DNA of 64,000 nucleotides from positions 8,184,001-8,248,000 of the forward strand of contig NC_087118.1 of assembly GCF_963855985.1 (NCBI RefSeq), given 5' to 3'. This stretch comes from Ostrinia nubilalis. Taxonomy: Eukaryota > Arthropoda > Insecta > Lepidoptera > Crambidae. This document shows positions 3,349-59,841 of this stretch, in pieces. Below the pieces are notes generated by a model that saw only the letters and a program-made list of their open reading frames with translations, did not search any database and was not told the origin of the DNA. Position 1 is the first letter of the stretch, and every line of letters starts with the position of its first letter. The translations under genes and the position numbers were made by a program.

Positions 3349-3665
3349 TATTAGCTAACTTGGTCTTGGAACAATGTTGTTAAGGTACTCTTAACTTTTT
3401 TGCTTACAATGAACTAATTAATCGCTAATATAAGCTAACTTAGTTTTGAAACAATGTTGTTAAGATAGGTAGCTTTGACCTTTTGTTTACAATTAACCCA
3501 TTAAACGCTAATTTTAGCTGACTTAGTTTTGAAACAATGTTATTAAGATACCTTTAATTTTTTTTGCTTACAATGAACTAATTAAACGCTAATTTTAGCT
3601 AACTTAATTTTGAAACAATGTTATTAAGATACCTTTGACCTTTTGTTTACAATTAACTAATGAGC
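3349..3665. repeat. Tandem repeat, about 81 bp x 4
   Basis: Units starting with AGCTAACTTAGTTTTG recur at about 3353, 3433, 3516 and 3597, each containing AACAATGTTGTTAAGATA or a close variant. The block lies between the integrase fragment and the 3' LTR of the Gypsy element, in its 3' untranslated region. Confidence 0.85.
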
Positions 3666-16170: not shown

Positions 16171-17337
16171 TTATCTAAAATGCCTATCAATAAATGCTCG
16201 TAAGATAGCACTGTTTGGGCCTCTTCCTCTGTCCTCGTTAACTCGTGGTTCAGCAACAGCATCCTGTATCTCAATAATTTCGTTGCCTTGATCTGGTACC
16301 AAGTCCTCATTTCCTATTGCAATATTGTGCAATACTGCAAGTGCGACAATGGTTGGTTTTACATTGTGCATATGCACTGTTAAACCATTTAATAAACATT
16401 GAAACCGCTGTTTCCATACACCAAAGCAACGTTCAACACAGTTGCGAGTGGCAATCTGGGCTTGATTGTATCTTTGTTCCTGTTCATTTTGAGGCCTTAA
16501 TATGGGTGTAAAAAGATATGATTCTAGTCGATACCCAGAATCCCCCAAAAGTCTTCCTCTGAACTCGCCTCGTTCAAAGCGTTCTTTAAGAGTGGACTCA
16601 TTAAATATTCTGGAATCATGAGTGCTGCCTCGCCACCTTGCAACAATGTCCATTATTTTTAGTTCGGCATCACAAGTTACTTGTACGTTCATTGAGTAAT
16701 ATCCTTTTCTGTTTATATAATATTGAGCTGCGTCACCACCATATTTCTTTATTTTTATATGGGTGCAATCAATACACCCCAGGACAGAAGGAAATCGCCG
16801 TATATTGTAAAATTCCCTCATTACTTTTTCTTGTTCTGCCAGTGACTCTGGCATTTTTATATAGGTTCCAGAGTGGCGCGCTATCGCGCGGGCTACTCTG
16901 GCACAAATGCGACTTACAGTTGGTTGAGATAACCCATGGATTTCTCCCCCATCATCTTGAACCTAAAATGTTACAAAGAAATTTAAAAACGTCTTTATGT
17001 AGGTGTATTAAAATGCGGCATAATTATATTAAATACTTGTAAGTAGAGTACTTACTTCACGACGACCCCAACATCTTATAGCGGTTAACACCTGTAACTC
17101 AGGTGAAGTTCCACAACCTCGTGAGTCCAACTGCAAGTCTTGCCTGACGAGATCAATTATAAAATTCATGGTATTTTTGTTGAAACGGTATCGCCGTTTA
17201 AACTCTACATCTGGCAAAGAAAACGGATCACATCTCTCCTGGTAAATCTTTTGACGACGTGGAGCATTTTCTGCTCCTTCAATGCGTTCAATAGCTTCTA
17301 ATGTTTCCAGAGTTTGCAGAGTTAGCAGAGCTTCCAT
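16171..17337 (-). CDS. Harbinger DDE transposase (HARBI1-like), two exons
   Basis: Exon 1 runs 17337-17056 and exon 2 runs 16962-16171, with donor GTAAGT and acceptor TTTTAG joined in frame. Exon 2 starts VQDDGGEIHGLSQPTVSR, the helix-turn-helix-like region of HARBI1 proteins. The catalytic triad is visible as D in LGCIDCTHIKI, D in LLGDSGYRL and E in NCVERCFGVWKQRF. The enzyme would cut and paste the element into TWA targets in the nucleus, together with the Myb-like partner. About 374 residues is a normal length. An alternative ATG at 17361 adds eight residues. All expected blocks are present, which suggests a recently active copy. Confidence 0.85.
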
Positions 17338-25205: not shown

Positions 25206-25280
25206 ATACTACAATGCACGCCAGCGTCCTGACGGGCGCGCGCGTAACACTCGACTGATATAAATAATACCCGCCGGCGG
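25206..25280 (+). repeat. Probable 5' part of the plus-strand Gypsy 5' LTR
   Basis: GC-rich sequence directly left of the composite TIR element is continuous with the LTR promoter region at 32400 once the element and one GCCGGCGG copy are ignored. The LTR start is not defined. TGACGGGCGCGC near 25230 is one candidate. Confidence 0.4.
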
Positions 25281-25724
25281 CAGGGTTGCCAGATATCAGC
25301 TAACTCAATTCGCCTAATTTTTCCTACCGAGTAGCCTAAATCGCCTAATATTTTTTTTTCTTAAAGTAGCCTAATTCGCCTAACATTTTGAGCTAAGTAT
25401 ACAAAAATTGCTTATACAAATACATATCAAATCGACACATTAATGACAAACAGCTGTTTATCTCTTTCTAACTTACCCATGGTGACGTATAAAAAAAGAG
25501 ATAGATAATGTTTGGTCAGTACTCATTCTGGCGACTTTTTCATATGACGTCACTACCTGACTTGTGCCGAGTACATATAGTTCCAAAATACTGGACTGTC
25601 CTATCGATGACATTGACAGTGGGGCGCCACCGTCAATACCGGATCGCTGGTTCCGATTTTTGCCATGTTGGAAACCATATAGTTGAACGATGGTAGCGCC
25701 CCCCTGTCATTGAGTTTGGTGGGA

Positions 25725-27082
25725 CCTCAGATCATAGAAGGGAATAGATGTGAAACGGGGGCGTGGCGCGTGTCTCCGCGATATGCCCAGAAACGAACAT
25801 CGCCCGCGACGCCAGGTTAGTCGCGATTCAGTCGTACTGAGGAAATGTTCTCCTATATTGTTGGATAATGCGTCGTAACGTGCAATAACATAAGTGAAAC
25901 GAAGAACTACAGGAACAATGAAGTCATTTACCACATGTAAATATTGCAAATCCATTGGTATTTTGCTTATAAATAAAAAAAACTAAACATTTTTACGAAC
26001 AAATTCAGTGCCGTGACATTTACTGCGATATCGAAATTAGTGGTGATAAAAATTCAAACACGTTGTACATTGACGATTTAGTTAGCAACCACTTTATGTC
26101 ATGCGTAACTACTGCGCAATGTATTTTATTTCTTCCGATATCCACTGACGCGTGAAAATACACAGTACGGCCGCATGTGCCGGTCGTAACATAGTGCAGG
26201 GCTCGTGTTCTAATACGGTTTCCTATTATCGATAAGTAGAAGTAAATTATTATTTTCTATTTTCTAATTTTGAATGAAAAAATCATGAGTTGCTTGCGAT
26301 TTTTAAGTTTTTACAAAAACAATAACAATAGTAGAAGGGATTAGTAACTGTCAACTATATAATTACTATAAGAGCTAGTTGAAAGCCTAATATAGGCATT
26401 ATTTTTGATAAACATAGGGGTACGAATTTCGCCATAATTAAAAAGTTAATGCGCGATAGTAGTTAATAATAATTACAGTGATCCTGTTATTATTATTAAA
26501 GTAATTGTAAATACTGGTAAAAATCGCAAGTACCTACTTAACCCATGACTTTTCATACAAACTTTGTCAGTCTATAACTTCTATACTCCATCGATAACGA
26601 CATTGAGCTTTGGTTGGGGTAAATTAATATAAGGTAACTTCATTTAGTCCCAATAATTGATTCTGAGTTTTTCGTCCATACAAAATGGAACTGACTCCTT
26701 TATGCAAAAATCGTTACAGAACATAATAATAACGTATAATAATAAAAAGGTACATACAAGCATTTTTTAAACCAATTTCGAGCCTTGCCCCCAGGATTTA
26801 AAGTATCGATATCTTATCGACTCCATTTTATCTTTCTTCTCTCTAATTGCTTTTTTCAAAGTGTGCGTCACGTCACGCGGCCATTGATTGGCCATAAGGC
26901 ACGCCTTCTGGCCAATCACAGCACTTTTAAGCCGGTTGCACATGTTGTCGTAGACTCTCAGTCGCTTTGTTTTTACACAGTTGAATGTGTGTGTGGGAGC
27001 TGTGGTGGGGGAAATGTGGGGACACTGGTTCTCGTTGTAGTTACGCGCGACTTCATATCTATTCTCTTTCTATGATCTGAGG
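25725..27082. mobile_element. TIR element inside composite copy 1, absent from copy 2
   Basis: The ends are CCTCAGATCATAGAA and its complement, with similarity extending about 33 bp. GTGGGA flanks it (25719-25724, 27083-27088), and copy 2 has a single GTGGGA at the empty site (54527-54532). It has no credible coding region. The empty site makes the boundaries firm. The superfamily is unknown. Confidence 0.88.
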
Positions 27083-27112
27083 GTGGGACAGTTCAGCGTG
27101 GGTCATCTATAC

Positions 27113-27154
27113 AAGATTTAAGAAAACAACATGGCAATCAGCTGACAACTATAC

Positions 27155-27199
<45 letters not shown>

Positions 27200-27249
27200 A
27201 ACCTGTCAGCTGATTGCCTATATTGCGGCCATGTTGTTTTCTTAAATCG
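27113..27249. repeat. Inverted repeat around an (AC)n tract
   Basis: ATTTAAGAAAACAACATGG plus CAATCAGCTGACA on the left faces TGTCAGCTGATTG plus CCATGTTGTTTTCTTAAAT on the right, with (AC)19 between. Copy 2 has the same structure at about 54557-54691 with (AC)18. It could form a cruciform or an RNA hairpin. Confidence 0.85.
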
Positions 27250-28685
27250 TGTATTTATAATGCGTGTAAGTGTGTGCGTAATGTATGTACTGAGCACGTT
27301 TATTTTAAAGTTACGCCAAGTCCATGAGATACGAGTACCTATTACCTATCCTACAAATATTGTTATGCGAAAGCTAGTATCTCATATCTATACTTGTACG
27401 CACAGTACGCAATAGTTCTATCTCACTCTTATGAAGAGTGAGCGAATGGAAAGAACGGTGGATGTCTCAGATTAAGTGTTAGGTGGATGATGTGCATTAT
27501 TACGTTTCGTTACTTTTGTTACATGCAAAATTTATTTTTCCAAGGTAATCGTGAAGTAGGGTATTTCGCCAAAAATGGTCAATTTTGCCTAATTTCCTTG
27601 GTATGAAAAAATTTTTTGTTTTTAACTATTTTTAGTTTCCCATTGCATTAAGTAGCAAAAACTAAGCTAATATATCTAAAAGGGGTGTCATAATTCGTTT
27701 TAGAAACAAAGTTATAAGGTCATGAATTTTTGGTAGCCAAGGAAATTATTTTAAACAATTGTTTCTCGTAAGTTTTCTTCTGTGGTTTGCTTTTTTTTGT
27801 TCGACCCATTTTTGTGTACCTACGCAAGCAAACATTCCAATGAATATTGTATCATTACGACCTTTTTACACAACTAAGGGAGATAAATGCAGTAGATTGA
27901 GTTAAGAGTTAAAAACAAGTTGTTTTATATCTATTCTGATACCCGTTTCTTAAAATGAAAATTTTAAACTTATTCTAATAAAGAAATACTCAAAATTTGA
28001 CTTTACGCCGAATTAAAAATGGTCTGTTATAATTTCCTAGGCCATTTTATGCCATGGAAAACAAGGAAATTAGGACCAAAGAAATTAGATTTATGCCTAA
28101 AAGACACCACAGACAAAAACCTATTTACCCTATGCATTTACTATTTAAATCATGGGTTTACCCCTACAAACACTACATCTGTGTAAATAAACAATAAAAT
28201 TAATCCATTGTTTAGCTGCAAAAAACCGTCCAAAGAAATTGACTTTTTAGTAAACAAAAACCCAAGGAGGGACCTACTTATGCGATTTGACGCGAAACTG
28301 TTCAACGAAGTACTGTCCTGCCTCGATGACCTCTTGGGATGAAATGGCCGAGTGTAACGGTGCAGTGCATTACATTCTAAGTTCTTTCGTTTCGTTACTA
28401 CAATGGTCGAAAAGAAGACCCAGGGAAATTATACTTTGGACTCGGACAAGAACTTAACTTCTGTCAACTGTCAACCGATCACTCCGAATGCTCGGATTAA
28501 AATAATATTTTCTGTGTTATTCTTGTGCGTCCGAGCCCCTGGACTATATATTTCCCTTCAGTAAGTGACAGGCCTGTCTTGTGCATAAGGACAGACTATC
28601 CCGTGGCTGTTTTGAGCTGTGTTTTGATAATCTTCAGTCATCATCCAGTATTGACAGTATCCAAGGACGCCCTTTTTGACAACGT

Positions 28686-28800
28686 GGGTTGCCGTAAGCC
28701 AGCCAATAAGCGGATGTAATCCAACGCATGCGCTACGGCAACCCGTCACCGTTTCCTCGGCGTGCGCTGTCCACGCATGCGCGGTTCTTCGCCTTTTAGC
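28686..28800 (+). promoter_or_regulatory. Putative promoter region of the RT gene
   Basis: The stretch holds a CCAAT box (28702-28706), two CGCATGCGC sites (28725-28733 and 28774-28782, NRF-1-like palindromes) and an 11-bp inverted repeat GGGTTGCCGTA/TACGGCAACCC (28686-28696 and 28735-28745). It is the only clearly promoter-like, GC-richer block in the 1.4 kb before the ATG. Function is inferred. Confidence 0.4.
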
Positions 28801-28959
28801 TGCGCTGCTTAGCAACCAAGCCGACGACGTGACGTGTTGATAACAATGATGACATATGGGATGTTTAAATGTGCTGTGTTTTTATATTTTATTTTTATGA
28901 GTTTTTGGAATCCTTTTTATTAGTTTAGCGTCATAATTACTCTATTTGTCTTGACGTGA

Positions 28960-31821
28960 ATGTCGGCAAGTTCTTCAATTCCTGGCAGCGACGACGTACA
29001 ACTGGTACAATGCCCTCATTGCCCACAGCCCCGGTTTTTTAAAGGTAACCGGGGCTTGAATATACACATTGGCAGATGTCATAAACCCCCTCATGTTTCC
29101 TCACCAGCAGTTTCTCCAGCTCCACAGCCGGCTAACCAACCTCTTTGGCAAACTCTCGGCAACCTAAAAAATTCACTTCCACTCTTGAAAAGAATCCCTC
29201 GTTCTGCACGGCCTTCAGTCGCTGTTGCTCTAGCACATTGCATCGAGCATGTGATTAGAGTAAACACGACTGAGAGCTGGGCAGAACTCCTAACGTTTTC
29301 CTATAGAATCCTACATATCAATCAAAATAATAGCATGTCATTAACACAAAAAATAAAAGAAAACTGCCGTCTAAATCCCTCCGTTCATTCCATTGTTATT
29401 CCTCCCTCTCGACCCCAAAATTCCAAAAAATCCATTAAATTAATTGAATCAAAAGTTAGCGATGGTGATCTCCGTGGAGCCGCCAATCTTTTATTTAGCA
29501 ACGATGTTGTCGCCTTCGACTGCCAGGAAACACTCAGTGCTCTTGAGGATAAGCACCCACCTCCAGCACCGAATCTCCTCCTGCCTCCGCCTCCTGATCC
29601 TACCGCTGCCCACATAATCTGCAAAGAAGATGACGTATCGTCTGCCATCTTTTCATTCAAAAGCGGGTCTGCCAGCGGCCTAGACGGTCTTTCACCACAA
29701 CACCTGAAAGACCTTCTCTCTGTCTCAGTCGGTGACGCTGGCAGAGTATTATTACACAATATGACTCTTTTGGTAAACCTAATGCTATCCGGCGAAGTCC
29801 CAGCTGATATTATCGAAATTCTTTATGGAGCCAACTTAATAGCTTTACGGAAAAAAGATGGCGGCATTCGCCCTATAGCTGTTGGCTCCACCCTTCGCCG
29901 TATAGCATCCAAAATTTGCTGTTCTCACATTTTACCTACCGTTTCTGCAGAGTTCCAACCAGTACAGCTTGGTTTCGGCGTCAAAGGTGGATGCGAAGCA
30001 GCCGTTCACGCTCTCCGTACCTTCCTGTCACTTGACGCCGCGGAGGTGGTGCTGAAGGTGGATGTCAAGAACGCCTTCAACTCGGTAGATAGAGGTGCCT
30101 TGCTTTCAGCCATTCATCAAAAAGTTCCTCATATTTACAATTATCTTTGGCAATGCTATAGCAAACCCACAAAATTAATTTTCAAAAACAACCTATTATA
30201 TTCATCTGTCGGCTGTCAGCAAGGCGATCCTCTCGGGCCCGCTATTTTTAGTTTAGCAAAACAACCCATTATTGATTCACTAAATTCAAAATTTAATGTG
30301 TGGTACCTAGATGACGGAACTATCGCTGGCGATATTTCATCCGTTCTCTCAGACTTCCACACCATCATTGATAAATTCAAAAGTATCGGACTTGATCTCA
30401 ATTATTCAAAATGCGAGCTATTTATCCCAGAATCAAAATTTTCACATGTTCAGTTACAAGACATTATTACAAAATTTTCGGCTTTAGCTCCCAATATCAA
30501 AATTCTCAATAATACGTCACTCCGTCTTTTAGGTTCCCCTATTTTTGACGAGGCTATTCCGATTTTTATTAATGAACAAATTTCCAAATTTCAGCAGTCC
30601 TCCGAAAATATGCTAAAGATAAACCCTCACATGGCTTTGTATTTAATCCGTTTTTGCGCATATGCCCCAAAATTTATATATTTTTTACGTAGTACCCATT
30701 TTTGGCTTTTTCCAGGACTACTATCAATCATTGATAGTTCGCTCAGGGAGACACTCTCCAAAATTCTAAATTGTGCATTTAGCGATAACGCCTGGAAACA
30801 GGCCTCTCTCCCTGTGCGTTTCGGAGGACTAGGCACACGTCAGATATCGCATATTGCCCTTCCAGCTTTTCTGTCTTCTGCGTATGGTACAGCCGAACTC
30901 TTTAATAAATTACTATCCCCTTCTTTAGGGGTAGTGGAGTTGGCTCACCTCGCAGAAGCCAGAAACGCTTGGACTAGGGCATGCCCGGGAGCCGATCCAC
31001 CTACCTCTCTATCGTCTCAGAGGCAGTGGGACGAGCCGCTCTGTTTGCGTTTTCAGAGTGATCTATTGGCTTCCTCCGAAAATGCTGCAGAGCGTGCTCG
31101 CCTACTAGCGGTCTTTCAGGCAGAGTCCGGTTATTGGCTACATGCTCTTCCTTCGGCCAATATCGGGACTCTGCTTGACAGGAGTACACTATCCCTTGCC
31201 ATTTCCCTTAGACTTGGCGTCAAGACAAACCATCCCCATCGCTGTCGTTGCGGTACTCGCGTCGGTGAGTTAGGACACCATGGCCTCTCATGCCAAATGA
31301 GCGCTGGTCGAGTCTCCCGACACGCCTGCATCAATGACGTCATCCGCAGAGCTCTTGTCGCCGTCAATGTGCCAGCAGTTTTAGAGCCTAACGGCATATT
31401 CCATGACGACGGCAAGAGACCTGACGGCATGACGCTCATTCCCTGGAAGCAGGGACGTCCTCTTGTGTGGGACGCAACATGCGCGGATACGCTTGCTCCG
31501 TCTCATACAGGAGGTACCTCCCTTGCCGCAGGCGCGGCGGCGGCCTCGGCTGAGTGCTCCAAGCGGCGCAAATATGCAGCTCTCAATGAGAGTTATATAT
31601 TTGTGCCGTTTGGGGTTGAGACTATGGGACCATGGGGTCCAAGCGCTCGTTCCTTTTATAAGGAACTGGCAAAGAGGCTCACCGAGGTGACCGGTGATCA
31701 AAAGGCTGGCAGCTATTTTGGTCAGAGAATTAGCCTGGCCATTCAACGTGGCAATGCTGCCAGCCTTTTGGGCACCATTCCCGACTGCGGCGCTGGGGGT
31801 GAAGTATTTTTTATTTTGTAA
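28960..31821 (+). CDS. Reverse transcriptase with C2H2 finger and PD-D (REL-like) nuclease, 953 aa, copy 1
   Basis: One uninterrupted frame. Residues 18-41 form a C2H2 finger (C18, C21, H36, H41). RT blocks follow: SGLDGLSPQHLKDLL, RKKDGGIRPIAVGSTLRR, motif A LKVDVKNAFNSVD (D368), motif B GCQQGDPLGPAIF (418-430) and motif C YLDD (449-452). After the thumb comes a CCHC knuckle (C762, C764, H773/774, C778), then P821-D822, D838 and a later KRRKY (868-872), matching the restriction-like endonuclease of R2-type retrotransposons. Such proteins nick DNA and prime reverse transcription from the nick. Similar proteins of unknown biology exist in other animals, as I recall. The ATG context (GACGTGAATG) is acceptable, with upstream stops. 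All catalytic residues look intact. The setting, inside TIRs, is what is odd. Confidence 0.88.
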   Translation: MSASSSIPGSDDVQLVQCPHCPQPRFFKGNRGLNIHIGRCHKPPHVSSPAVSPAPQPANQPLWQTLGNLKNSLPLLKRIPRSARPSVAVALAHCIEHVIRVNTTESWAELLTFSYRILHINQNNSMSLTQKIKENCRLNPSVHSIVIPPSRPQNSKKSIKLIESKVSDGDLRGAANLLFSNDVVAFDCQETLSALEDKHPPPAPNLLLPPPPDPTAAHIICKEDDVSSAIFSFKSGSASGLDGLSPQHLKDLLSVSVGDAGRVLLHNMTLLVNLMLSGEVPADIIEILYGANLIALRKKDGGIRPIAVGSTLRRIASKICCSHILPTVSAEFQPVQLGFGVKGGCEAAVHALRTFLSLDAAEVVLKVDVKNAFNSVDRGALLSAIHQKVPHIYNYLWQCYSKPTKLIFKNNLLYSSVGCQQGDPLGPAIFSLAKQPIIDSLNSKFNVWYLDDGTIAGDISSVLSDFHTIIDKFKSIGLDLNYSKCELFIPESKFSHVQLQDIITKFSALAPNIKILNNTSLRLLGSPIFDEAIPIFINEQISKFQQSSENMLKINPHMALYLIRFCAYAPKFIYFLRSTHFWLFPGLLSIIDSSLRETLSKILNCAFSDNAWKQASLPVRFGGLGTRQISHIALPAFLSSAYGTAELFNKLLSPSLGVVELAHLAEARNAWTRACPGADPPTSLSSQRQWDEPLCLRFQSDLLASSENAAERARLLAVFQAESGYWLHALPSANIGTLLDRSTLSLAISLRLGVKTNHPHRCRCGTRVGELGHHGLSCQMSAGRVSRHACINDVIRRALVAVNVPAVLEPNGIFHDDGKRPDGMTLIPWKQGRPLVWDATCADTLAPSHTGGTSLAAGAAAASAECSKRRKYAALNESYIFVPFGVETMGPWGPSARSFYKELAKRLTEVTGDQKAGSYFGQRISLAIQRGNAASLLGTIPDCGAGGEVFFIL

Positions 31822-32399
31822 ATAGTTTTTATCATTAGTAATTTTTAAATTTTAGTTTTTAAGTCATTTTAAGTTAATGTAATGTATTATTATAAAATTT
31901 ATTCACTTCACTTTATTTCCTTCCTTTAAGTATTTGACATTTAAAGTTTTTATTTTCCGATAGCCAAACGTTTCTCAAATATAAAGAGAGTGCTATTAGA
32001 ATGAAATTACGCTTCAATTTGTTATAATGTGCCTTCATTTTGGCAAACAACAGTAATGGACATAACAAGGAAATTAGAAAATCGACTTTTGATTAAGTTT
32101 TTCTTCGGTATTATTTGTAGTTTCTGCTATTGTAATAGCAAAAACAAATAAAACTTTTGATGAACTTTCCCATAAAAATAGTTTTATACATATAGATATA
32201 AAAAAACATGTGTTCGCCTGCCTGGACACAGAAAATTTACTGTTTTGGCGAAATACCCAGTAGCCTAAATAGCCCGATCTTTTTTTCTAGGTAGCCTAAA
32301 TGGCTACTGGTAGCCGTTGGCATTTTTTGGTCGCCATTTGACCCCCGAAGGTAGCCTAAATGGCGATAATTCGCCTAATCTGGCAGCACTGGCCGGCGG

Positions 32400-32754: not shown

Positions 32755-34053
32755 ATGTCGGATCGCGAACGTACTCGTAGTCGATGCCGTTTAAGTGGTC
32801 GGGAACGGCGTTTATAGTAGGTACCGTGATCGTACTCCGGATGGTGAATTAAGACGTGAAATGGAAACCATGTTGGCGCGCATCAGCAGGACGTTAGAAA
32901 ACCAAGTGGCAGGCGGTACACCACAACCGAGGGCGGCACATAGTGTTCGTTCTGTTACCGTCGTGTTACCGTACCTCGCCGTCGGTCACCTCGGTCGCGT
33001 TCGCGGTCACGGTCCAGGCATTGCCGGGTGGCCTCACCGTCACGTAGTCGTACTCGTAGGCGATCTGTACCCGACCGAAAGTCCCCTTCGTTACTCGGTC
33101 GGCGATCTAGGCGTGAGCAAGTCTCCTCAATGTCACCTAGCCGCCCTGAACCATGCACGCAGCGTGTATTGCCTCCGGAAACGTTAACTCCACCGCTGCA
33201 ACCGCCTAGTGAATTATGTGCCAGTAGGGAAGGTGATAGTGCGTCGGACTGTGTGAATAGTGAACTTGTTGCACCGTCTACAACGACGGATCGGATTGTT
33301 GATGCTATCCGCTCGATAAATAACGTGGTGAGATCGAATCAACGGTTCTATCTTTCTAACTTTGACCCTAACTTGCATAATATTGATGATTGGTGTGCGG
33401 AAGTCGATCGTGCGAAAACGTTAAATAATTGGAGCGATTTTGAGTGTCTTTCGCGCATCGGTAATTGTTTGAAAGGTGAAGCAGAAGTATGGTTGAATGA
33501 GTGGGTGACGAGTGAGCGTACTTGGAGCAATTTCAAACGGGAATTTAAGCCTTTGTGTCCGAAAACACCTGATGTAGCTAATATTTTGTATGAGGTAATG
33601 TGTAACAACTCTGATAATTTCACCACATATGCCGATTACGCTCGTCGTTCACTACTTCGCTTACGTATAGTGCAGGGACTCAGTGATGAGTTGATTTCAG
33701 CGATAATAGTGCGTGGGATTACCGATCCACAGATTCGAGCGTCAGCTACGAATGCTAAACTTTTGCCTAATAACTTGGTTGAGTTTCTCTCGATCTATGT
33801 CAAACCGAACGTGTCTAAAAATAGTGCGTCTCGAATTGTACCTCAGCATAAAACCAAAAACGCTTCCGATACTTTGTTAAATAGAAAACGTTGGCTCGAC
33901 GAGAGACGGTGTTTTACGTGCGGTCAGACAGGGCATAGACAAGCTACCTGTAATAATAATAAAAAGACTAGAAACGATTCGGATGGGCCGTCGTCGGCTA
34001 CTAGTTCCAGTAATTCGAATCCCAAGCCAGTTTTTGTACCGACGCAACCTTAG
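32755..34053 (+). pseudogene. gag: Gypsy gag with CCHC zinc knuckles, broken
   Basis: The likely start ATG 32755 opens an Arg/Ser-rich N-terminus with early stops and frame changes. From 33028 one frame runs 341 codons. It contains the capsid region (LKGEAEVWLNEWV, TWSNFKREF) and a zinc knuckle CFTCGQTGHRQATC. TAG at 34051-34053 precedes a second knuckle (CAFCKKVGHKVEVC), so the original gag was longer. Gag would build the particle and bind RNA. The lesions make this copy inactive. Confidence 0.8.
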
Positions 34054-34158
34054 ACGTGTGCATTTTGTAAAAAGGTCGGTCACAAGGTCGAAGTCTGCTT
34101 TGCCAAGCAAAGGGCCGAATCGCGTAATCAAAACAACGTGAATTTCTGTCGTGAAAGC

Positions 34159-34793
34159 CCATTAGTCAGCGTAGTGATGTTATTGCGGCCGTTATTCAAG
34201 GCATACCGACTGATGTTTTGATTGACAGTGGGTCAACTATATCGCTCATTTCATCATCATTATTGAAGCATTTTAATTGCACACATAAGCCGACATTCCG
34301 TGTTTTGAAGGGCTTAGGTAGTCAGAAACTTGAAAGCACTTCCTATGTGACTTTGCCGATAGAATTCGATGGCGTGACACTTGAGGTTGATCTATTCGTG
34401 GTAGCTTCCGAATTCATGAACACGCCAGTTTTAGTGGGCACTGATGTCCTAAATAGAGAGGGTGTCCGGTATATTCGTACACGTGACTCTCAGATACTTA
34501 CTCGGGAAGTAGTTAAGCCTGACCAAGTGCTGGCAGTTCAGTTTGATGCGTCTATCCCCATTAACACACCTTTGCTTGATAATGATTTGCAACAATTAAT
34601 GGAAATAATTCAAGAGTTTTCACAACATCTTATATCTGGTACTGCGACTTCTACCGTAAATACGGGCAGTATGACTATCAAACTGAACAGTTGCGCGCCT
34701 ATTACCTACCGTCCTTATCGCCTATCGCTCGCGGAGACTCTGCGCGTCCGTGAAATAATTAAAGACTTGTTAAGTAATAGTACAGGAATCTGA
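34159..34793 (+). pseudogene. pro: Gypsy protease and start of RT
   Basis: The frame carries the retropepsin active site VLIDSGSTISLIS and the later VLVGTDVLNREGV block, then the linker into RT (YRPYRLSLAE). It stops at TGA 34791-34793, just before the conserved start of RT. RT continues in another frame, so a frameshift or stop separates them. Protease would process the polyprotein. Confidence 0.8.
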
Positions 34794-35870
34794 GTCTAAT
34801 TACGCAAGTCCTATTCTTCTCGTGAAGAAGAAGGATGGCTCAGATAGAATGTGTGTAGATTTCCGTAAATTGAACGAGGTGACTGTAAAGAACCGGTTTC
34901 CATTACCCCGAATAGACGACTACATTGATCGGTTAGGTCACAATAAGTATTTCACGAGCCTCGACATGGTTACGGGATTTCATCAGATTCCTTTGCAAGA
35001 GGAGTCTGTACCGCTTACTGGCTTCGTAACGCCCGAAGGGCATTACGAATATCTTAAAATGCCCTATGGTCTGGCAAACGCACCAGTTGTGTACCAGCGG
35101 ATCATCACGAAAACACTTCGTGAATTCATAGAATCTGGCGAAATCCTCGTATACATCGACGACGTACTAACTCTGAGTAAGACCTTAGATCGTGGCTTTG
35201 TTCTCTTGCGCGATGTACTTAAGGCCTCAGCCTCGAGTTTAGCGGGCAGCGGGGCGGGAACGGCGGCGGCGCGGGAGCGGGGCGGGCAACGCAGACCCGT
35301 TATCGAAACAAGCGGGCAGCTCGCGCGGCGCTTTAGCGGCGAAATGTTGTGTTCGGGGTTGTGTTGTCGAGATATTCGCAAACGAAATGTTTGAACAACG
35401 GCGACAATTTTATTTCGATTCAAATTTATTCCTAACGCTCGATTTACTGTGGGCAAAAGAAGGAGTGCGCTGCCCGCTCGTTGCCCGCTCAAGTGCCGCT
35501 GCCCGCTCGTTGCCCGCTCCCGCCCCGCTGCCGCGCCGCTGTTTTCGAGAACCGGTCTATTTGATTTTACGCATAAGATCCTGCCGCTCCCGCGCCGCCG
35601 CCGCTCCCGCCCCGCTGCCCGCTAAACTCGAGGCTGAGGCCTAAGACATTAACTGATGCCGGGTTTTCGATAAATCTGAAGAAATGTTCTTTTCTCGCGA
35701 CGAATATCGAGTATCTTGGCCGTAGCATTAGTGAGGGTCAGGTGAGGCCGAGTCGTGATAAGGTTAAGGCCCTGATAGATACTGCAGAACCAAATAATGT
35801 TAAACAGGTCCGCCAGTTCATGGGCCTAGCCAGCTACTTCCGACGAAACCTTTGCACTGAAAACTGCTTG
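34794..35870 (+). pseudogene. Gypsy reverse transcriptase, split by a MITE
   Basis: RT blocks seen are ILLVKKKDGSDRMCVDFRKL, FTSLDMVTGFHQIPL, YLKMPYGLANAPVVYQR and the catalytic VYIDDVL. After DVLK the 419-bp MITE interrupts. The frame resumes at 35642 with the conserved motif after the fingers-palm (EYLGRSISEGQVRPS) and the connection VRQFMGLASYFRR. The frame fails around 35870, before RNase H. The YIDD catalytic site is intact, but the gene is not expressible as a whole. Confidence 0.85.
35223..35641. mobile_element. GC-rich Harbinger-type MITE, copy 1 (419 bp)
   Basis: The ends are GGCCTCAGCCTCGA and its complement, flanked by TAA (35220-35222, 35642-35644). It is very rich in GC, with repeated GCGGGCAGCGGGGCGGG in inverted arms. 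If the element and one TAA are ignored, the RT frame continues. Copy 2 is at 51775-52203. Confidence 0.85.
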
Positions 35871-35880
35871 TATTGCGGCT

Positions 35881-36576
35881 TTGACTCGTAAAGGGGTAGA
35901 ATTTAAATGGGGTGCAGAGCAGCAGGCAGCTCGGAATGATATCATTCAGTCACTTACCAGTGAGCCAGTATTAGCGATCTACGACCCTTCCTTGCCTATC
36001 GAGGGCCATACCGACGCAAGCTCCACCGGTTACGGGGCTGTTCTTATGCAAGTGCACGAGGGTGGGTGCAAGCGGGTGGTAGCTTACTACAGCCAGCTGA
36101 CACAGGGAGCTGAGGGTAAATACCACTCGTACGAGCTGGAAACCCACGCCGTAGTTAAAGCCCTGCAGCATTTCAGGCACTATCTTGTGGGTGTACGTTT
36201 CACCGTGGTCACAGACTGCAATGCGCTTAAACTCACTCAGCGCAAGAAAGACTTGCTTCCCAGGGTGGCCCGGTGGTGGGTATACCTCCAAGACTTTGAT
36301 TTTGGCCTGGACTATCGCAAAGGCTCGCTCATGTCACATGCCGACTATTTAAGTCGAAATCCTGTGAATGTGTGCACGGTTCAAAGACCACAGACCTGGT
36401 CACAGATAGCACAAGCTTCCGATGAAGAAACCCGGACTCTCATCCAGAAGCTTTCCGATGGGCAACTGGATGCGACTCGCTATGTCGTTAGAAACGACCT
36501 CCTTAATGCCAAGTATACCCCTACTCTGGAGAGCCTTCTCGACTCCTCTGTTTCATACCAAAGGGACACAGATTAA
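35881..36576 (+). pseudogene. Gypsy RNase H domain and connection to integrase
   Basis: The frame includes the RNase H blocks GHTDASSTGYGAVLMQ, HSYELETHAVVKALQHFRHY and VVTDCNALKLT, with the D-E-D residues in place, and ends in HADYLSR, the conserved end of Gypsy RNase H. A stop follows at about 36574. RNase H removes template RNA during reverse transcription. Confidence 0.85.
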
Positions 36577-37672
36577 GTCTGCTTCGTGTGTTCCATGACG
36601 AACACGAACATCCTGGGGTTGATAAAACAGTCGATTAGATATTGAAACATTTCTGGTTTCCGGGCTTACGAGGGTTTGTTCAGAAATACGTCGCACACTG
36701 CTTAGTGTGCATTTCTCACAAAAAGATTGCGCGAGCGCCTCTCCAACCTATTCACTCTTGGGAGAAGCCTGAGTTACCTTTTGAGATTGTCCATATGGAC
36801 GTCTTGGGCCCTCTCCCTGAAGCAGATGGGTATCGCTATGTTCTTATAGTGATCGACGCATTCTCGAAGTTTTGTCTTTTATATCCCATGTCTCGACAAG
36901 ATGCAAGCGAATTAAAACGTCACGTTACCAATGCGATTTCTCTATTTGGAACTCCTAAGTTGATTGTGGCTGACAGGGGCCGCATGTTTCAGAGCGTCGA
37001 ATTTCTCGAGTTTATTACGGGATTAGGGTGCGATACACGCCCATTACGCCCGAGATGCATCAGTCAAACGGTCAAGTGGAGCGCTACTGCCGGACGGTGC
37101 TCAATATGATACGCATCGAATCCAATTACCGGCAGCACAAGTGGCCCAGTGTCATGTGGAAGCTCCAATTGATACTGAACATCACAAAACACCGAACAAC
37201 TCAATACTCTGCTCTAAACTTGTTGGTGGGTATCGATGCTGCAACGCCTCTTATCAGAGGCCTGGTACGTGATGTGGCCTTGGAGGGCTCCAGTCCTAAT
37301 AGGGAAGCTTTACGGGAGATGAGCAGACAAAGAGCCTCGGAGCGACTTAGGCAGAATCAACAAGATCAGGATTCCTACGTCAATCGGGGACGAAGACCAC
37401 CTCGAGGGTATGAGCTTAATTCACTAGTTTTTGTCAGAAAGCAGGCACAATCAACTGGGAAACCGGACTCAGGTATGCGTGGTCCATATCGCATAGTGAA
37501 GAAACTACCCCATGGACGCTACGAGCTACAGCTGGTGGCTGGGTCATATGGGAAACTGACTCAAGCAGCTTCCGAGTACATGACCCCGTGGCGGGGTGGA
37601 TGGACCCCTGAGGTGTGTGCCGCTTATTTTGAAGGTGAGATGAGAGGTATATTTCTCTTTATTCACTTGTAA
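36577..37672 (+). pseudogene. Gypsy integrase with GPY/F-like C-terminal domain, frameshifted
   Basis: The H2C2 finger begins in HDEHEHPGVDKTV, contains a stop (TAG near 36635), then continues AHCLVC. The catalytic core has D in HMDVLGPL and VLIVIDAFSKF, then D in IVADRGRMF. A frame change around 37028 leads to the part with the catalytic E (HQSNGQVERYCRT). The C-terminal part has GPYRIVKKLPHGRYEL, the GPY/F module. The stop is at 37670-37672. Confidence 0.85.
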
Positions 37673-53919: not shown

Positions 53920-54598
53920 ATGCCCAAAAGTGGTATCGCTCGAAATCTAATTGTACATTGAGAGTACCACACCGTAAATTCCTTTCTTCATTTGTAATGA
54001 TTTGCGAAAGTAGTAAGAAATTGTAAAACCTCCGGAATAAAATCCGATTTTAATAAAAAGTATTGTAACAACGAGCTGCAATCAGCAACAGGGTTGCCAG
54101 ATATCAGCTAACTCAATTCGCCTAATTTTTCCTACCGAGTAGCCTAAATCGCCTAATATTTTTTTTTCTTAAAGTAGCCTAATTCGCCTAACATTTTGAG
54201 CTAAGTATACAAAAATTGCTTATACAAATACATATCAAATCGACACATTAATGACAAACAGCTGTTTATCTCTTTCTAACTTACCCATGGTGACGTATAA
54301 AAAAAGAGATAGATAATGTTTGGTCAGTACTCATTCTGGCGACTTTTTCATATGACGTCACTACCTGACTTGTGCCGAGTACATATAGTTCCAAAATACT
54401 GGACTGTCCTATCGATGACATTGACAGTGGGGCGCCACCGTCAATACCGGATCGCTGGTTCCGATTTTTGCCATGTTGGAAACCATATAGTTGAACGATG
54501 GTAGCGCCCCCCTGTCATTGAGTTTGGTGGGACAGTTCAGCGTGGGTCATCTATACAAGATTTAAGAAAACAACATGGCAATCAGCTGACAACTATAC

Positions 54599-54641
<43 letters not shown>

Positions 54642-55000
54642 AACCTGTCAGCTGATTGCCTATATTGCGGCCATGTTGTTTTCTTAAATCGTGTATTTAT
54701 AATGCGTGTAAGTGTGTGCGTAATGTATGTACTGAGCACGTTTATTTTAAAGTTACGCCAAGTCCATGAGATACGAGTACCTATTACCTATCCTACAAAT
54801 ATTGTTATGCGAAAGCTAGTATCTCATATCTATACTTGTACGCACAGTACGCAATAGTTCTATCTCACTCTTATGAAGAGTGAGCGAATGGAAAGAACGG
54901 TGGATGTCTCAGATTAAGTGTTAGGTGGATGATGTGCATTATTACGTTTCGTTACTTTTGTTACATGCAAAATTTATTTTTCCAAGGTAATCGTGAAGTA

Positions 55001-58000
55001 GGGTATTTCGCCAAAAATGGTCAATTTTGCCTAATTTCCTTGGTATGAAAAAATTTTTTGTTTTTAACTATTTTTAGTTTCCCATTGCATTAAGTAGCAA
55101 AAACTAAGCTAATATATCTAAAAGGGGTGTCATAATTCGTTTTAGAAACAAAGTTATAAGGTCATGAATTTTTGGTAGCCAAGGAAATTATTTTAAACAA
55201 TTGTTTCTCGTAAGTTTTCTTCTGTGGTTTGCTTTTTTTTGTTCGACCCATTTTTGTGTACCTACGCAAGCAAACATTCCAATGAATATTGTATCATTAC
55301 GACCTTTTTACACAACTAAGGGAGATAAATGCAGTAGATTGAGTTAAGAGTTAAAAACAAGTTGTTTTATATCTATTCTGATACCCGTTTCTTAAAATGA
55401 AAATTTTAAACTTATTCTAATAAAGAAATACTCAAAATTTGACTTTACGCCGAATTAAAAATGGTCTGTTATAATTTCCTAGGCCATTTTATGCCATGGA
55501 AAACAAGGAAATTAGGACCAAAGAAATTAGATTTATGCCTAAAAGACACCACAGACAAAAACCTATTTACCCTATGCATTTACTATTTAAATCATGGGTT
55601 TACCCCTACAAACACTACATCTGTGTAAATAAACAATAAAATTAATCCATTGTTTAGCTGCAAAAAACCGTCCAAAGAAATTGACTTTTTAGTAAACAAA
55701 AACCCAAGGAGGGACCTACTTATGCGATTTGACGCGAAACTGTTCAACGAAGTACTGTCCTGCCTCGATGACCTCTTGGGATGAAATGGCCGAGTGTAAC
55801 GGTGCAGTGCATTACATTCTAAGTTCTTTCGTTTCGTTACTACAATGGTCGAAAAGAAGACCCAGGGAAATTATACTTTGGACTCGGACAAGAACTTAAC
55901 TTCTGTCAACTGTCAACCGATCACTCCGAATGCTCGGATTAAAATAATATTTTCTGTGTTATTCTTGTGCGTCCGAGCCCCTGGACTATATATTTCCCTT
56001 CAGTAAGTGACAGGCCTGTCTTGTGCATAAGGACAGACTATCCCGTGGCTGTTTTGAGCTGTGTTTTGATAATCTTCAGTCATCATCCAGTATTGACAGT
56101 ATCCAAGGACGCCCTTTTTGACAACGTGGGTTGCCGTAAGCCAGCCAATAAGCGGATGTAATCCAACGCATGCGCTACGGCAACCCGTCACCGTTTCCTC
56201 GGCGTGCGCTGTCCACGCATGCGCGGTTCTTCGCCTTTTAGCTGCGCTGCTTAGCAACCAAGCCGACGACGTGACGTGTTGATAACAATGATGACATATG
56301 GGATGTTTAAATGTGCTGTGTTTTTATATTTTATTTTTATGAGTTTTTGGAATCCTTTTTATTAGTTTAGCGTCATAATTACTCTATTTGTCTTGACGTG
56401 AATGTCGGCAAGTTCTTCAATTCCTGGCAGCGACGACGTACAACTGGTACAATGCCCTCATTGCCCACAGCCCCGGTTTTTTAAAGGTAACCGGGGCTTG
56501 AATATACACATTGGCAGATGTCATAAACCCCCTCATGTTTCCTCACCAGCAGTTTCTCCAGCTCCACAGCCGGCTAACCAACCTCTTTGGCAAACTCTCG
56601 GCAACCTAAAAAATTCACTTCCACTCTTGAAAAGAATCCCTCGTTCTGCACGGCCTTCAGTCGCTGTTGCTCTAGCACATTGCATCGAGCATGTGATTAG
56701 AGTAAACACGACTGAGAGCTGGGCAGAACTCCTAACGTTTTCCTATAGAATCCTACATATCAATCAAAATAATAGCATGTCATTAACACAAAAAATAAAA
56801 GAAAACTGCCGTCTAAATCCCTCCGTTCATTCCATTGTTATTCCTCCCTCTCGACCCCAAAATTCCAAAAAATCCATTAAATTAATTGAATCAAAAGTTA
56901 GCGATGGTGATCTCCGTGGAGCCGCCAATCTTTTATTTAGCAACGATGTTGTCGCCTTCGACTGCCAGGAAACACTCAGTGCTCTTGAGGATAAGCACCC
57001 ACCTCCAGCACCGAATCTCCTCCTGCCTCCGCCTCCTGATCCTACCGCTGCCCACATAATCTGCAAAGAAGATGACGTATCGTCTGCCATCTTTTCATTC
57101 AAAAGCGGGTCTGCCAGCGGCCTAGACGGTCTTTCACCACAACACCTGAAAGACCTTCTCTCTGTCTCAGTCGGTGACGCTGGCAGAGTATTATTACACA
57201 ATATGACTCTTTTGGTAAACCTAATGCTATCCGGCGAAGTCCCAGCTGATATTATCGAAATTCTTTATGGAGCCAACTTAATAGCTTTACGGAAAAAAGA
57301 TGGCGGCATTCGCCCTATAGCTGTTGGCTCCACCCTTCGCCGTATAGCATCCAAAATTTGCTGTTCTCACATTTTACCTACCGTTTCTGCAGAGTTCCAA
57401 CCAGTACAGCTTGGTTTCGGCGTCAAAGGTGGATGCGAAGCAGCCGTTCACGCTCTCCGTACCTTCCTGTCACTTGACGCCGCGGAGGTGGTGCTGAAGG
57501 TGGATGTCAAGAACGCCTTCAACTCGGTAGATAGAGGTGCCTTGCTTTCAGCCATTCATCAAAAAGTTCCTCATATTTACAATTATCTTTGGCAATGCTA
57601 TAGCAAACCCACAAAATTAATTTTCAAAAACAACCTATTATATTCATCTGTCGGCTGTCAGCAAGGCGATCCTCTCGGGCCCGCTATTTTTAGTTTAGCA
57701 AAACAACCCATTATTGATTCACTAAATTCAAAATTTAATGTGTGGTACCTAGATGACGGAACTATCGCTGGCGATATTTCATCCGTTCTCTCAGACTTCC
57801 ACACCATCATTGATAAATTCAAAAGTATCGGACTTGATCTCAATTATTCAAAATGCGAGCTATTTATCCCAGAATCAAAATTTTCACATGTTCAGTTACA
57901 AGACATTATTACAAAATTTTCGGCTTTAGCTCCCAATATCAAAATTCTCAATAATACGTCACTCCGTCTTTTAGGTTCCCCTATTTTTGACGAGGCTATT

Positions 58001-59700
58001 CCGATTTTTATTAATGAACAAATTTCCAAATTTCAGCAGTCCTCCGAAAATATGCTAAAGATAAACCCTCACATGGCTTTGTATTTAATCCGTTTTTGCG
58101 CATATGCCCCAAAATTTATATATTTTTTACGTAGTACCCATTTTTGGCTTTTTCCAGGACTACTATCAATCATTGATAGTTCGCTCAGGGAGACACTCTC
58201 CAAAATTCTAAATTGTGCATTTAGCGATAACGCCTGGAAACAGGCCTCTCTCCCTGTGCGTTTCGGAGGACTAGGCACACGTCAGATATCGCATATTGCC
58301 CTTCCAGCTTTTCTGTCTTCTGCGTATGGTACAGCCGAACTCTTTAATAAATTACTATCCCCTTCTTTAGGGGTAGTGGAGTTGGCTCACCTCGCAGAAG
58401 CCAGAAACGCTTGGACTAGGGCATGCCCGGGAGCCGATCCACCTACCTCTCTATCGTCTCAGAGGCAGTGGGACGAGCCGCTCTGTTTGCGTTTTCAGAG
58501 TGATCTATTGGCTTCCTCCGAAAATGCTGCAGAGCGTGCTCGCCTACTAGCGGTCTTTCAGGCAGAGTCCGGTTATTGGCTACATGCTCTTCCTTCGGCC
58601 AATATCGGGACTCTGCTTGACAGGAGTACACTATCCCTTGCCATTTCCCTTAGACTTGGCGTCAAGACAAACCATCCCCATCGCTGTCGTTGCGGTACTC
58701 GCGTCGGTGAGTTAGGACACCATGGCCTCTCATGCCAAATGAGCGCTGGTCGAGTCTCCCGACACGCCTGCATCAATGACGTCATCCGCAGAGCTCTTGT
58801 CGCCGTCAATGTGCCAGCAGTTTTAGAGCCTAACGGCATATTCCATGACGACGGCAAGAGACCTGACGGCATGACGCTCATTCCCTGGAAGCAGGGACGT
58901 CCTCTTGTGTGGGACGCAACATGCGCGGATACGCTTGCTCCGTCTCATACAGGAGGTACCTCCCTTGCCGCAGGCGCGGCGGCGGCCTCGGCTGAGTGCT
59001 CCAAGCGGCGCAAATATGCAGCTCTCAATGAGAGTTATATATTTGTGCCGTTTGGGGTTGAGACTATGGGACCATGGGGTCCAAGCGCTCGTTCCTTTTA
59101 TAAGGAACTGGCAAAGAGGCTCACCGAGGTGACCGGTGATCAAAAGGCTGGCAGCTATTTTGGTCAGAGAATTAGCCTGGCCATTCAACGTGGCAATGCT
59201 GCCAGCCTTTTGGGCACCATTCCCGACTGCGGCGCTGGGGGTGAAGTATTTTTTATTTTGTAAATAGTTTTTATCATTAGTAATTTTTAAATTTTAGTTT
59301 TTAAGTCATTTTAAGTTAATGTAATGTATTATTATAAAATTTATTCACTTCACTTTATTTCCTTCCTTTAAGTATTTGACATTTAAAGTTTTTATTTTCC
59401 GATAGCCAAACGTTTCTCAAATATAAAGAGAGTGCTATTAGAATGAAATTACGCTTCAATTTGTTATAATGTGCCTTCATTTTGGCAAACAACAGTAATG
59501 GACATAACAAGGAAATTAGAAAATCGACTTTTGATTAAGTTTTTCTTCGGTATTATTTGTAGTTTCTGCTATTGTAATAGCAAAAACAAATAAAACTTTT
59601 GATGAACTTTCCCATAAAAATAGTTTTATACATATAGATATAAAAAAACATGTGTTCGCCTGCCTGGACACAGAAAATTTACTGTTTTGGCGAAATACCC
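55001..59700 (+). mobile_element. RT-coding TIR unit (4700 bp), copy 2
   Basis: Identical termini to 27559-32258 and the same AGTA flanks (54997-55000, 59701-59704). Because the host element and position are the same as in copy 1, the unit entered the hAT-like element once and was then duplicated with it. Confidence 0.8.
56402..59263 (+). CDS. Reverse transcriptase with C2H2 finger and PD-D nuclease, 953 aa, copy 2
   Basis: The translation is identical to the gene at 28960-31821 over all 953 residues, including the C2H2 finger, the RT catalytic YLDD, the CCHC knuckle and the PD-D nuclease residues. The identity extends into the flanking untranslated DNA as far as I compared it, so the copies separated very recently. 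Two intact genes make decay unlikely. The protein should be nuclear and bind DNA through the N-terminal finger. Whether it mobilises its own RNA, the TIR unit, or something else cannot be read from the sequence. Confidence 0.88.
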   Translation: MSASSSIPGSDDVQLVQCPHCPQPRFFKGNRGLNIHIGRCHKPPHVSSPAVSPAPQPANQPLWQTLGNLKNSLPLLKRIPRSARPSVAVALAHCIEHVIRVNTTESWAELLTFSYRILHINQNNSMSLTQKIKENCRLNPSVHSIVIPPSRPQNSKKSIKLIESKVSDGDLRGAANLLFSNDVVAFDCQETLSALEDKHPPPAPNLLLPPPPDPTAAHIICKEDDVSSAIFSFKSGSASGLDGLSPQHLKDLLSVSVGDAGRVLLHNMTLLVNLMLSGEVPADIIEILYGANLIALRKKDGGIRPIAVGSTLRRIASKICCSHILPTVSAEFQPVQLGFGVKGGCEAAVHALRTFLSLDAAEVVLKVDVKNAFNSVDRGALLSAIHQKVPHIYNYLWQCYSKPTKLIFKNNLLYSSVGCQQGDPLGPAIFSLAKQPIIDSLNSKFNVWYLDDGTIAGDISSVLSDFHTIIDKFKSIGLDLNYSKCELFIPESKFSHVQLQDIITKFSALAPNIKILNNTSLRLLGSPIFDEAIPIFINEQISKFQQSSENMLKINPHMALYLIRFCAYAPKFIYFLRSTHFWLFPGLLSIIDSSLRETLSKILNCAFSDNAWKQASLPVRFGGLGTRQISHIALPAFLSSAYGTAELFNKLLSPSLGVVELAHLAEARNAWTRACPGADPPTSLSSQRQWDEPLCLRFQSDLLASSENAAERARLLAVFQAESGYWLHALPSANIGTLLDRSTLSLAISLRLGVKTNHPHRCRCGTRVGELGHHGLSCQMSAGRVSRHACINDVIRRALVAVNVPAVLEPNGIFHDDGKRPDGMTLIPWKQGRPLVWDATCADTLAPSHTGGTSLAAGAAAASAECSKRRKYAALNESYIFVPFGVETMGPWGPSARSFYKELAKRLTEVTGDQKAGSYFGQRISLAIQRGNAASLLGTIPDCGAGGEVFFIL

Positions 59701-59841
59701 AGTAGCCTAAATAGCCCGATCTTTTTTTCTAGGTAGCCTAAATGGCTACTGGTAGCCGTTGGCATTTTTTGGTCGCCATTTGACCCCCGAAGGTAGCCTA
59801 AATGGCGATAATTCGCCTAATCTGGCAGCACTGATCAGCAA

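Follow-up and report, generated by a model that had tools for sequence, protein, structure and literature searches.

The locus and its nested elements

The window, the stretch of 64,000 nucleotides from Ostrinia nubilalis analysed here, contains a 953-amino-acid open reading frame (ORF) within an R2-like LINE of ~3.44 kb. The LINE interrupts a short element, named TIR1 here, which is bounded by 16-bp perfect inverted repeats (TIRs) and by the 4-bp target-site duplication (TSD) AGTA, and TIR1 itself lies inside an outer hAT-like element with its own 8-bp TSD (Table 1). The inverted repeats, the AGTA flanks and the ORF had been described in an earlier note on this DNA and are all present where that note placed them. 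The 4.7-kb package of TIR1 and LINE occurs twice in the window; the second package, at 55001-59700, is absent from the earlier note, and the identity of the two copies extends beyond the TIRs.

The outer element of copy A also contains an additional insert of 1356 bp, which has the footprint of another transposon-like element nested in it.

Table 1. Coordinates of the two composites and of their parts in the window
Feature	Position	Strand	Remarks
Outer hAT-like element, composite copy A, 7111 bp	25281-32391	+	Starts CAGGGTTGCCAGAT, ends ATCTGGCAGCACTG; contains TIR1, LINE and the extra insert
8-bp TSD of copy A, left	25273-25280		GCCGGCGG
8-bp TSD of copy A, right	32392-32399		GCCGGCGG
Additional insert, copy A only, 1356 bp	25726-27081		Ends CTCAGATCATAG/CTATGATCTGAG, 12-bp inverted
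8-bp TSD of the 1356-bp insert	25718-25725 and 27082-27089		GGTGGGAC
TIR1 interrupted by LINE	27559-32258	+	Own sequence 27559-28461 and 31905-32258; ~1.25 kb when empty
Left 16-bp perfect inverted repeat (TIR1 end)	27559-27574
Right 16-bp perfect inverted repeat (TIR1 end)	32243-32258
4-bp TSD of TIR1, left	27555-27558		AGTA; from the sequence; L048 has a single AGTA here, and L047 is also without TIR1 there
4-bp TSD of TIR1, right	32259-32262		AGTA; basis as for the left AGTA
R2-like LINE, full length, ~3.44 kb	28462-31904	+	Full-length copies L012-L015 start at element position 1-4 and have unrelated flanks
5-bp TSD of LINE, left	28457-28461		ACTTC; from empty TIR1 copies L003, L006 and L008
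5-bp TSD of LINE, right	31905-31909		ACTTC; from comparison with empty TIR1 copies
953-aa ORF	28960-31821	+	C2H2 finger, RT (YLDD), CCHC knuckle, PD-D nuclease
Outer hAT-like element, composite copy B, 5745 bp	54089-59833	+	Same nested content, without the extra insert
8-bp TSD of copy B, left	54081-54088		ATCAGCAA
8-bp TSD of copy B, right	59834-59841		ATCAGCAA
Second TIR1 and LINE package, inside copy B	55001-59700	+
Second intact 953-aa ORF	56402-59263	+	Identical to the first

The LINE protein

The 953-aa ORF matches the RVT_1 domain over residues 297-494 with an E value of 2e-24. Residues C18, C21, H36 and H41, YLDD at 449-452, C762, C764, H773/H774 and C778, and P821, D822 and D838 are invariant in all nine rows of an alignment whose sequences all come from this genome, five belonging to one family at 99% identity and four standing at 57-60%. 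We take these residues to be the C2H2 finger, the YLDD motif of the RT, the CCHC knuckle and the PD...D motif of the nuclease, respectively. Aligned with a solved R2 protein, a profile made of the nine rows gives an E value of 1.1e-14 over profile positions 217-905, a span that runs from the RT through the knuckle to the nuclease and leaves the finger outside. The R2-like layout proposed in the earlier note is borne out by the RVT_1 match and by the profile alignment.

Among the solved R2 proteins 9nl3, 9dou and 9nl2, the first two are co-linear with the LINE over the RT, knuckle and nuclease (profile E values 1.1e-14 and 2e-14), while at the N-terminus one finger is seen in the LINE when it is compared with the R2 structures. 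R2 proper occupies one site in the 28S gene, whereas the insertion sites of the LINE differ from one another: 28S-specific insertion was not found, as each of the 17 loci outside contig 31 has flanks of its own and the window copy is placed in TIR1. With its single ORF, C2H2 finger, RT, CCHC knuckle and PD-(D/E) nuclease, the RT gene of the window is that of an R2-like REL non-LTR retrotransposon, the protein of which is presumably made.

The R2NS/BLAG elements, in the excerpt of their description (PMC7650587), likewise possess one ORF with RT and nuclease, N-terminal CCHH finger(s), scattered insertion and 5'-truncated copies. They are 3215-3669 bp long and encode 974-1073 aa with one or two N-terminal CCHH fingers, as compared with ~3440 bp and 953 aa here (PMC7650587, same excerpt). 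The host of BLAG in that excerpt is other than the present one, and the likeness is one of layout, length and insertion pattern.

Related RT families with 51-62% identity are present in the same genome at L024, L027-L030, L032 and further places. Several of them have open frames of 956-994 aa, which indicates that several R2-like lineages coexist here.

LINE copies elsewhere in the genome

The LINE was followed at the DNA level in 17 loci outside contig 31, which were fetched from matches with at least 92% identity; eight further places at this identity, one of them the second piece of the L026 locus, lie outside this set. TIR1 is absent beside the LINE in all 17 (no match longer than 80 bp at E 1e-10), which does not support the suggestion of the earlier note that an unusual RT family ends its copies with inverted repeats. 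Eleven of the loci are 5'-truncated, at 11 different internal points, and reach element position 3370-3440 of 3440. Four (L012-L015) are full length and start at element position 1-4, and of the remaining two, L023 is in two pieces and L026 has its 5' flank outside the stretch examined.

The longest words common to the 5' and 3' flanks have a mean length of 5.6 bases in 14 LINE copies, compared with 4.5 for shuffled pairings of flanks (200 shuffles, maximum 5.2), a count which omits L016 and L023 (script exclusion), L034 (short 3' end) and L026 (5' flank missing). Among the clear TSDs are ATATCAGATT in L018 (10 bp) and ATAAAAATC in L012 (9 bp), whereas in several single copies no TSD is evident. 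A retained 3' end, 5' truncation and TSDs of variable length, the footprints of target-primed reverse transcription, are all found among these copies, which are read here as products of ordinary target-primed reverse transcription with no fixed target sequence.

The 3' tails are not uniform. Many LINE copies end in TTTATTC, which in L020, L021, L025, L026 and L035 is followed by TTCTCTAAT, and L014 and L015 have a deviant tail made of AAGACAAGTT and then a run of A.

TIR1 as an independent DNA transposon

The 16-bp repeat occurs without mismatch at 119 places in the 495-Mb genome, a number far above chance, as a reversed-pattern control gives one match. The first eight of these 119 places yielded seven complete TIR1 elements of 1239-1252 bp, all free of RT sequence, and one place, L002, which matches over 94 bp only. 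The seven complete copies align to window positions 27559-28461 joined directly to 31902-32258, and each is flanked by a perfect 4-bp TSD (ATAG, ACAT, AAGC, TACT, AGGT, ATTG and ATCG). The TIRs and the 4-bp duplication had been proposed as the ends of the RT element itself, which is not compatible with seven complete RT-free copies having the same ends.

A second sample comprised 16 loci, twelve fetched as L052-L063 and four as close pairs. The right end was found, with at most one mismatch, in 11 of the 16, and nine of these 11 have a perfect TSD; the two exceptions are L063, where three of the four bases agree, and L040, which is a multi-element locus. In the other five the fetched stretch contained no right end. 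LINE sequence was not found in any of the 12 loci L052-L063 (1.3 kb each, with the right end not seen in five of the 12). Taken together, 24 loci were examined and 16 of the 18 copies with a right end carry a perfect 4-bp TSD. TIR1 is, to judge from its fixed TIRs and the constant length of the TSD in independent copies, a cut-and-paste DNA transposon family.

The site entered by the LINE is seen empty in copies L003, L006 and L008, where TTAACTTC is followed by A(C/T)TTTATTTCC; the left part of this site is also printed as GAACTTAACTTC, again preceding A(C/T)TTTATTTCC. In the filled site of the window ACTTC stands on both sides of the 28462-31904 insert, forming a 5-bp duplication. The exact search word at the LINE site was not found in L001, L004, L005 and L007, the BLAST match of which is in two parts as in the other complete copies.

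One TIR1 copy, L039 on contig 14, is 4658 bp long, a length that suggested a second RT-type TIR unit. It was rejected as such, its insert being different and containing a 577-aa gag-like ORF, which by its look is presumably a Pao-type gag.

The outer hAT-like element

The outer borders, CAGGGTTGCCAGATATCAGC... on the left and ...AATCTGGCAGCACTG on the right, are common to copies A and B of the window and to a third composite, copy C, which lies inverted in L044 on contig 31 near 7.89 Mb. Their 8-bp TSDs are perfect and different, GCCGGCGG for A, ATCAGCAA for B and GCGGCGGG for C, and the three are surrounded by three different flanking repeats. The outer 5' end has 37 matches in the genome with at most two mismatches, and its control has none. 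Six of the 37 copies were fetched: L047 is a complete outer element of 1008 bp without the nest and with the TSD GTGTGTGG, L048 is a copy in which the TIR1 site is empty and AGTA is single, and the other four match at the 5' end only or in blocks (1.1 kb fetched).

The 8-bp TSD expected of hAT elements is present in A, B, L044 and L047. As a rule, hAT elements have short TIRs that begin with CAGRG; the left end of the outer element, CAGGGTTGCCAGAT, fits this rule, and the right end (CAGTG), read inwards as CAGTGCTGCCAGAT, departs from it at the fourth base. The ~1-kb outer element is called hAT-like from these ends and the 8-bp TSD alone.

Movement of the whole stack

The junction between LINE and TIR1 is present four times in the genome (at most two mismatches), always on contig 31 and in a span of about 360 kb, and all four junctions are inside the hAT-like element. 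Over about 5.75 kb, copies A and B are free of substitutions relative to each other and are set apart by a single 2-bp gap; C differs from each of them by three substitutions and a short gap. Empty-site words of 29-32 bases with one 8-bp copy were found, at up to three mismatches, at 1149 places for A, 145 for B and 86 for C, and at none for the controls; the comparison covers words of this length. The word is exact in all 100 matches listed of the 1149 for A and in 18 of the 86 for C, and for B it is exact in one of the 100 matches listed of 145, the other 99 having one mismatch.

The fourth composite, in L043, is missing its 5' end and has its ORF out of frame. Its 3' flank is 99.9% identical to that of L044 over 1147 bp, and the two loci hold the composite and 3' flank in duplicate, in opposite orientation and separated by some 25-30 kb of contig 31. 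On this likeness L043 is a segmental duplicate of the L044 composite, not a fourth transposition.

The junctions between the elements, TSDs of three kinds, the empty sites found for each level of nesting and the near-identity of the copies, which are all directly visible, make it almost certain that these are three nested transposons, and that the outer hAT-like element carried the ~5.7-kb stack to at least three sites by DNA transposition. In the proposed course of events, a non-site-specific R2-like LINE would have entered TIR1 by target-primed reverse transcription. TIR1, with its 4-bp TSD, would have entered a non-autonomous hAT-like element with an 8-bp TSD, either before or after the LINE arrived. 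A hAT transposase, presumably supplied in trans and recognising the outer ends, could then have taken the whole ~5.7-kb stack to three sites or more. For three sites to be occupied, the complete stack has to have moved at least twice and, since it would have moved by DNA transposition, the intact LINE ORF would have spread without reverse transcription. Nothing found suggests that the LINE is more than passive cargo. The idea of an RT that became part of a cut-and-paste-like element is retained in this passive form, with the outer hAT-like element, which the earlier note did not describe, as the vehicle in place of the TIR1 unit.

The earlier note had taken the TIRs for the true ends of a single RT-bearing element which moves with a 4-bp TSD. 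Perfect TIRs and the AGTA duplication do surround an intact RT ORF, and the TIR-bounded package is found at four places, but these places share sequence beyond the TIRs and therefore provide no second 4-bp TSD for the 4.7-kb unit. TIR1 also exists in empty copies and the LINE in TIR1-free ones, 11 of 17 variably 5'-truncated, which are the kind of copies that the note itself had named as evidence against its reading; a single element of this type has next to no probability. The idea of a new RT family whose copies end in TIRs was rejected as well, there being, among the LINE copies fetched and the four LINE-TIR1 junctions, no independent TIR-bounded RT copies with different TSDs. Segmental duplication or gene conversion, rather than transposition, might also have multiplied the composites, all four of which are confined to about 360 kb of contig 31 and two of which, L043 and L044, form a duplicated pair with a common 3' flank. 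However, the borders of A, B and L044 coincide exactly with the outer ends. Their perfect 8-bp TSDs are three different ones, the repeats that flank them differ as well, and for each of them empty-site words occur elsewhere. Duplication as the general cause is very improbable: by the distinct TSDs it is refuted for A, B and L044, and it holds for L043 versus L044.

A variant of the nested explanation, compatible with it, is that TIR1 already contained the LINE when it entered the hAT-like element, which would amount to one 4.7-kb move of TIR1. By the data, either of the two inner insertions may have come first, and the LINE-TIR1 junction is common to all four copies, but no such junction is found outside a hAT-like context (four of four inside), and none of the 12 TIR1 loci L052-L063 has the LINE in 1.3 kb (right end unseen in five of the 12). 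This order of events is possible, if somewhat unlikely.

Precedents and implications

In maize, Ds elements of the hAT type carry LTR retrotransposons, and an Ac/Ds macrotransposon moved as much as 100 kb, mostly of nested retrotransposons (PMC3260210, in excerpt). These systems are likewise hAT-type with retrotransposon cargo, which in the macrotransposon was moved by DNA transposition (PMC3260210, in excerpt). Unlike the cargo in maize (PMC3260210), the cargo described here is a non-LTR element. Its ORF is intact, it is nested by way of a second TIR element, and it lies between the termini of a single element, whereas the cargo of the macrotransposon lies between an Ac and a Ds. Given these hAT precedents, the case is filed under a known kind: the window stack is a clean example of a known phenomenon and involves no new RT mechanism.

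This assignment disposes of an attractive but false candidate superfamily of RT-carrying cut-and-paste elements, and annotation which relies on TIRs and a TSD around an ORF would repeat the same error. In its place stands a clean case, with empty sites at each nesting level, of a DNA transposon spreading an intact LINE ORF as cargo. A protein search in which 48 of 1409 candidates were scored, and whose counts are lower bounds, found at least seven loci with an intact full-length ORF, three of the seven in hAT-like vehicles. It is conceivable, though rather doubtful, that the hAT-like vehicle is a second spreading route, by which the LINE is copied at full length by DNA transposition and escapes 5' truncation. 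If hAT-borne copies also seed new LINE insertions, a Class II element would be storing Class I master copies and distributing them.

Other elements in the window

Downstream of composite A, at 33028-37672, there are ORFs of an LTR retrotransposon, which we take to be gag-like, RNase H-like and integrase-like. No matching LTR pair was found around composite A in the window, and copies A and B were rejected as the two LTRs of one LTR retrotransposon, having hAT-like termini and different TSDs. A 227-aa ORF at 16171-16854 presumably resembles a nuclease of the Harbinger type.
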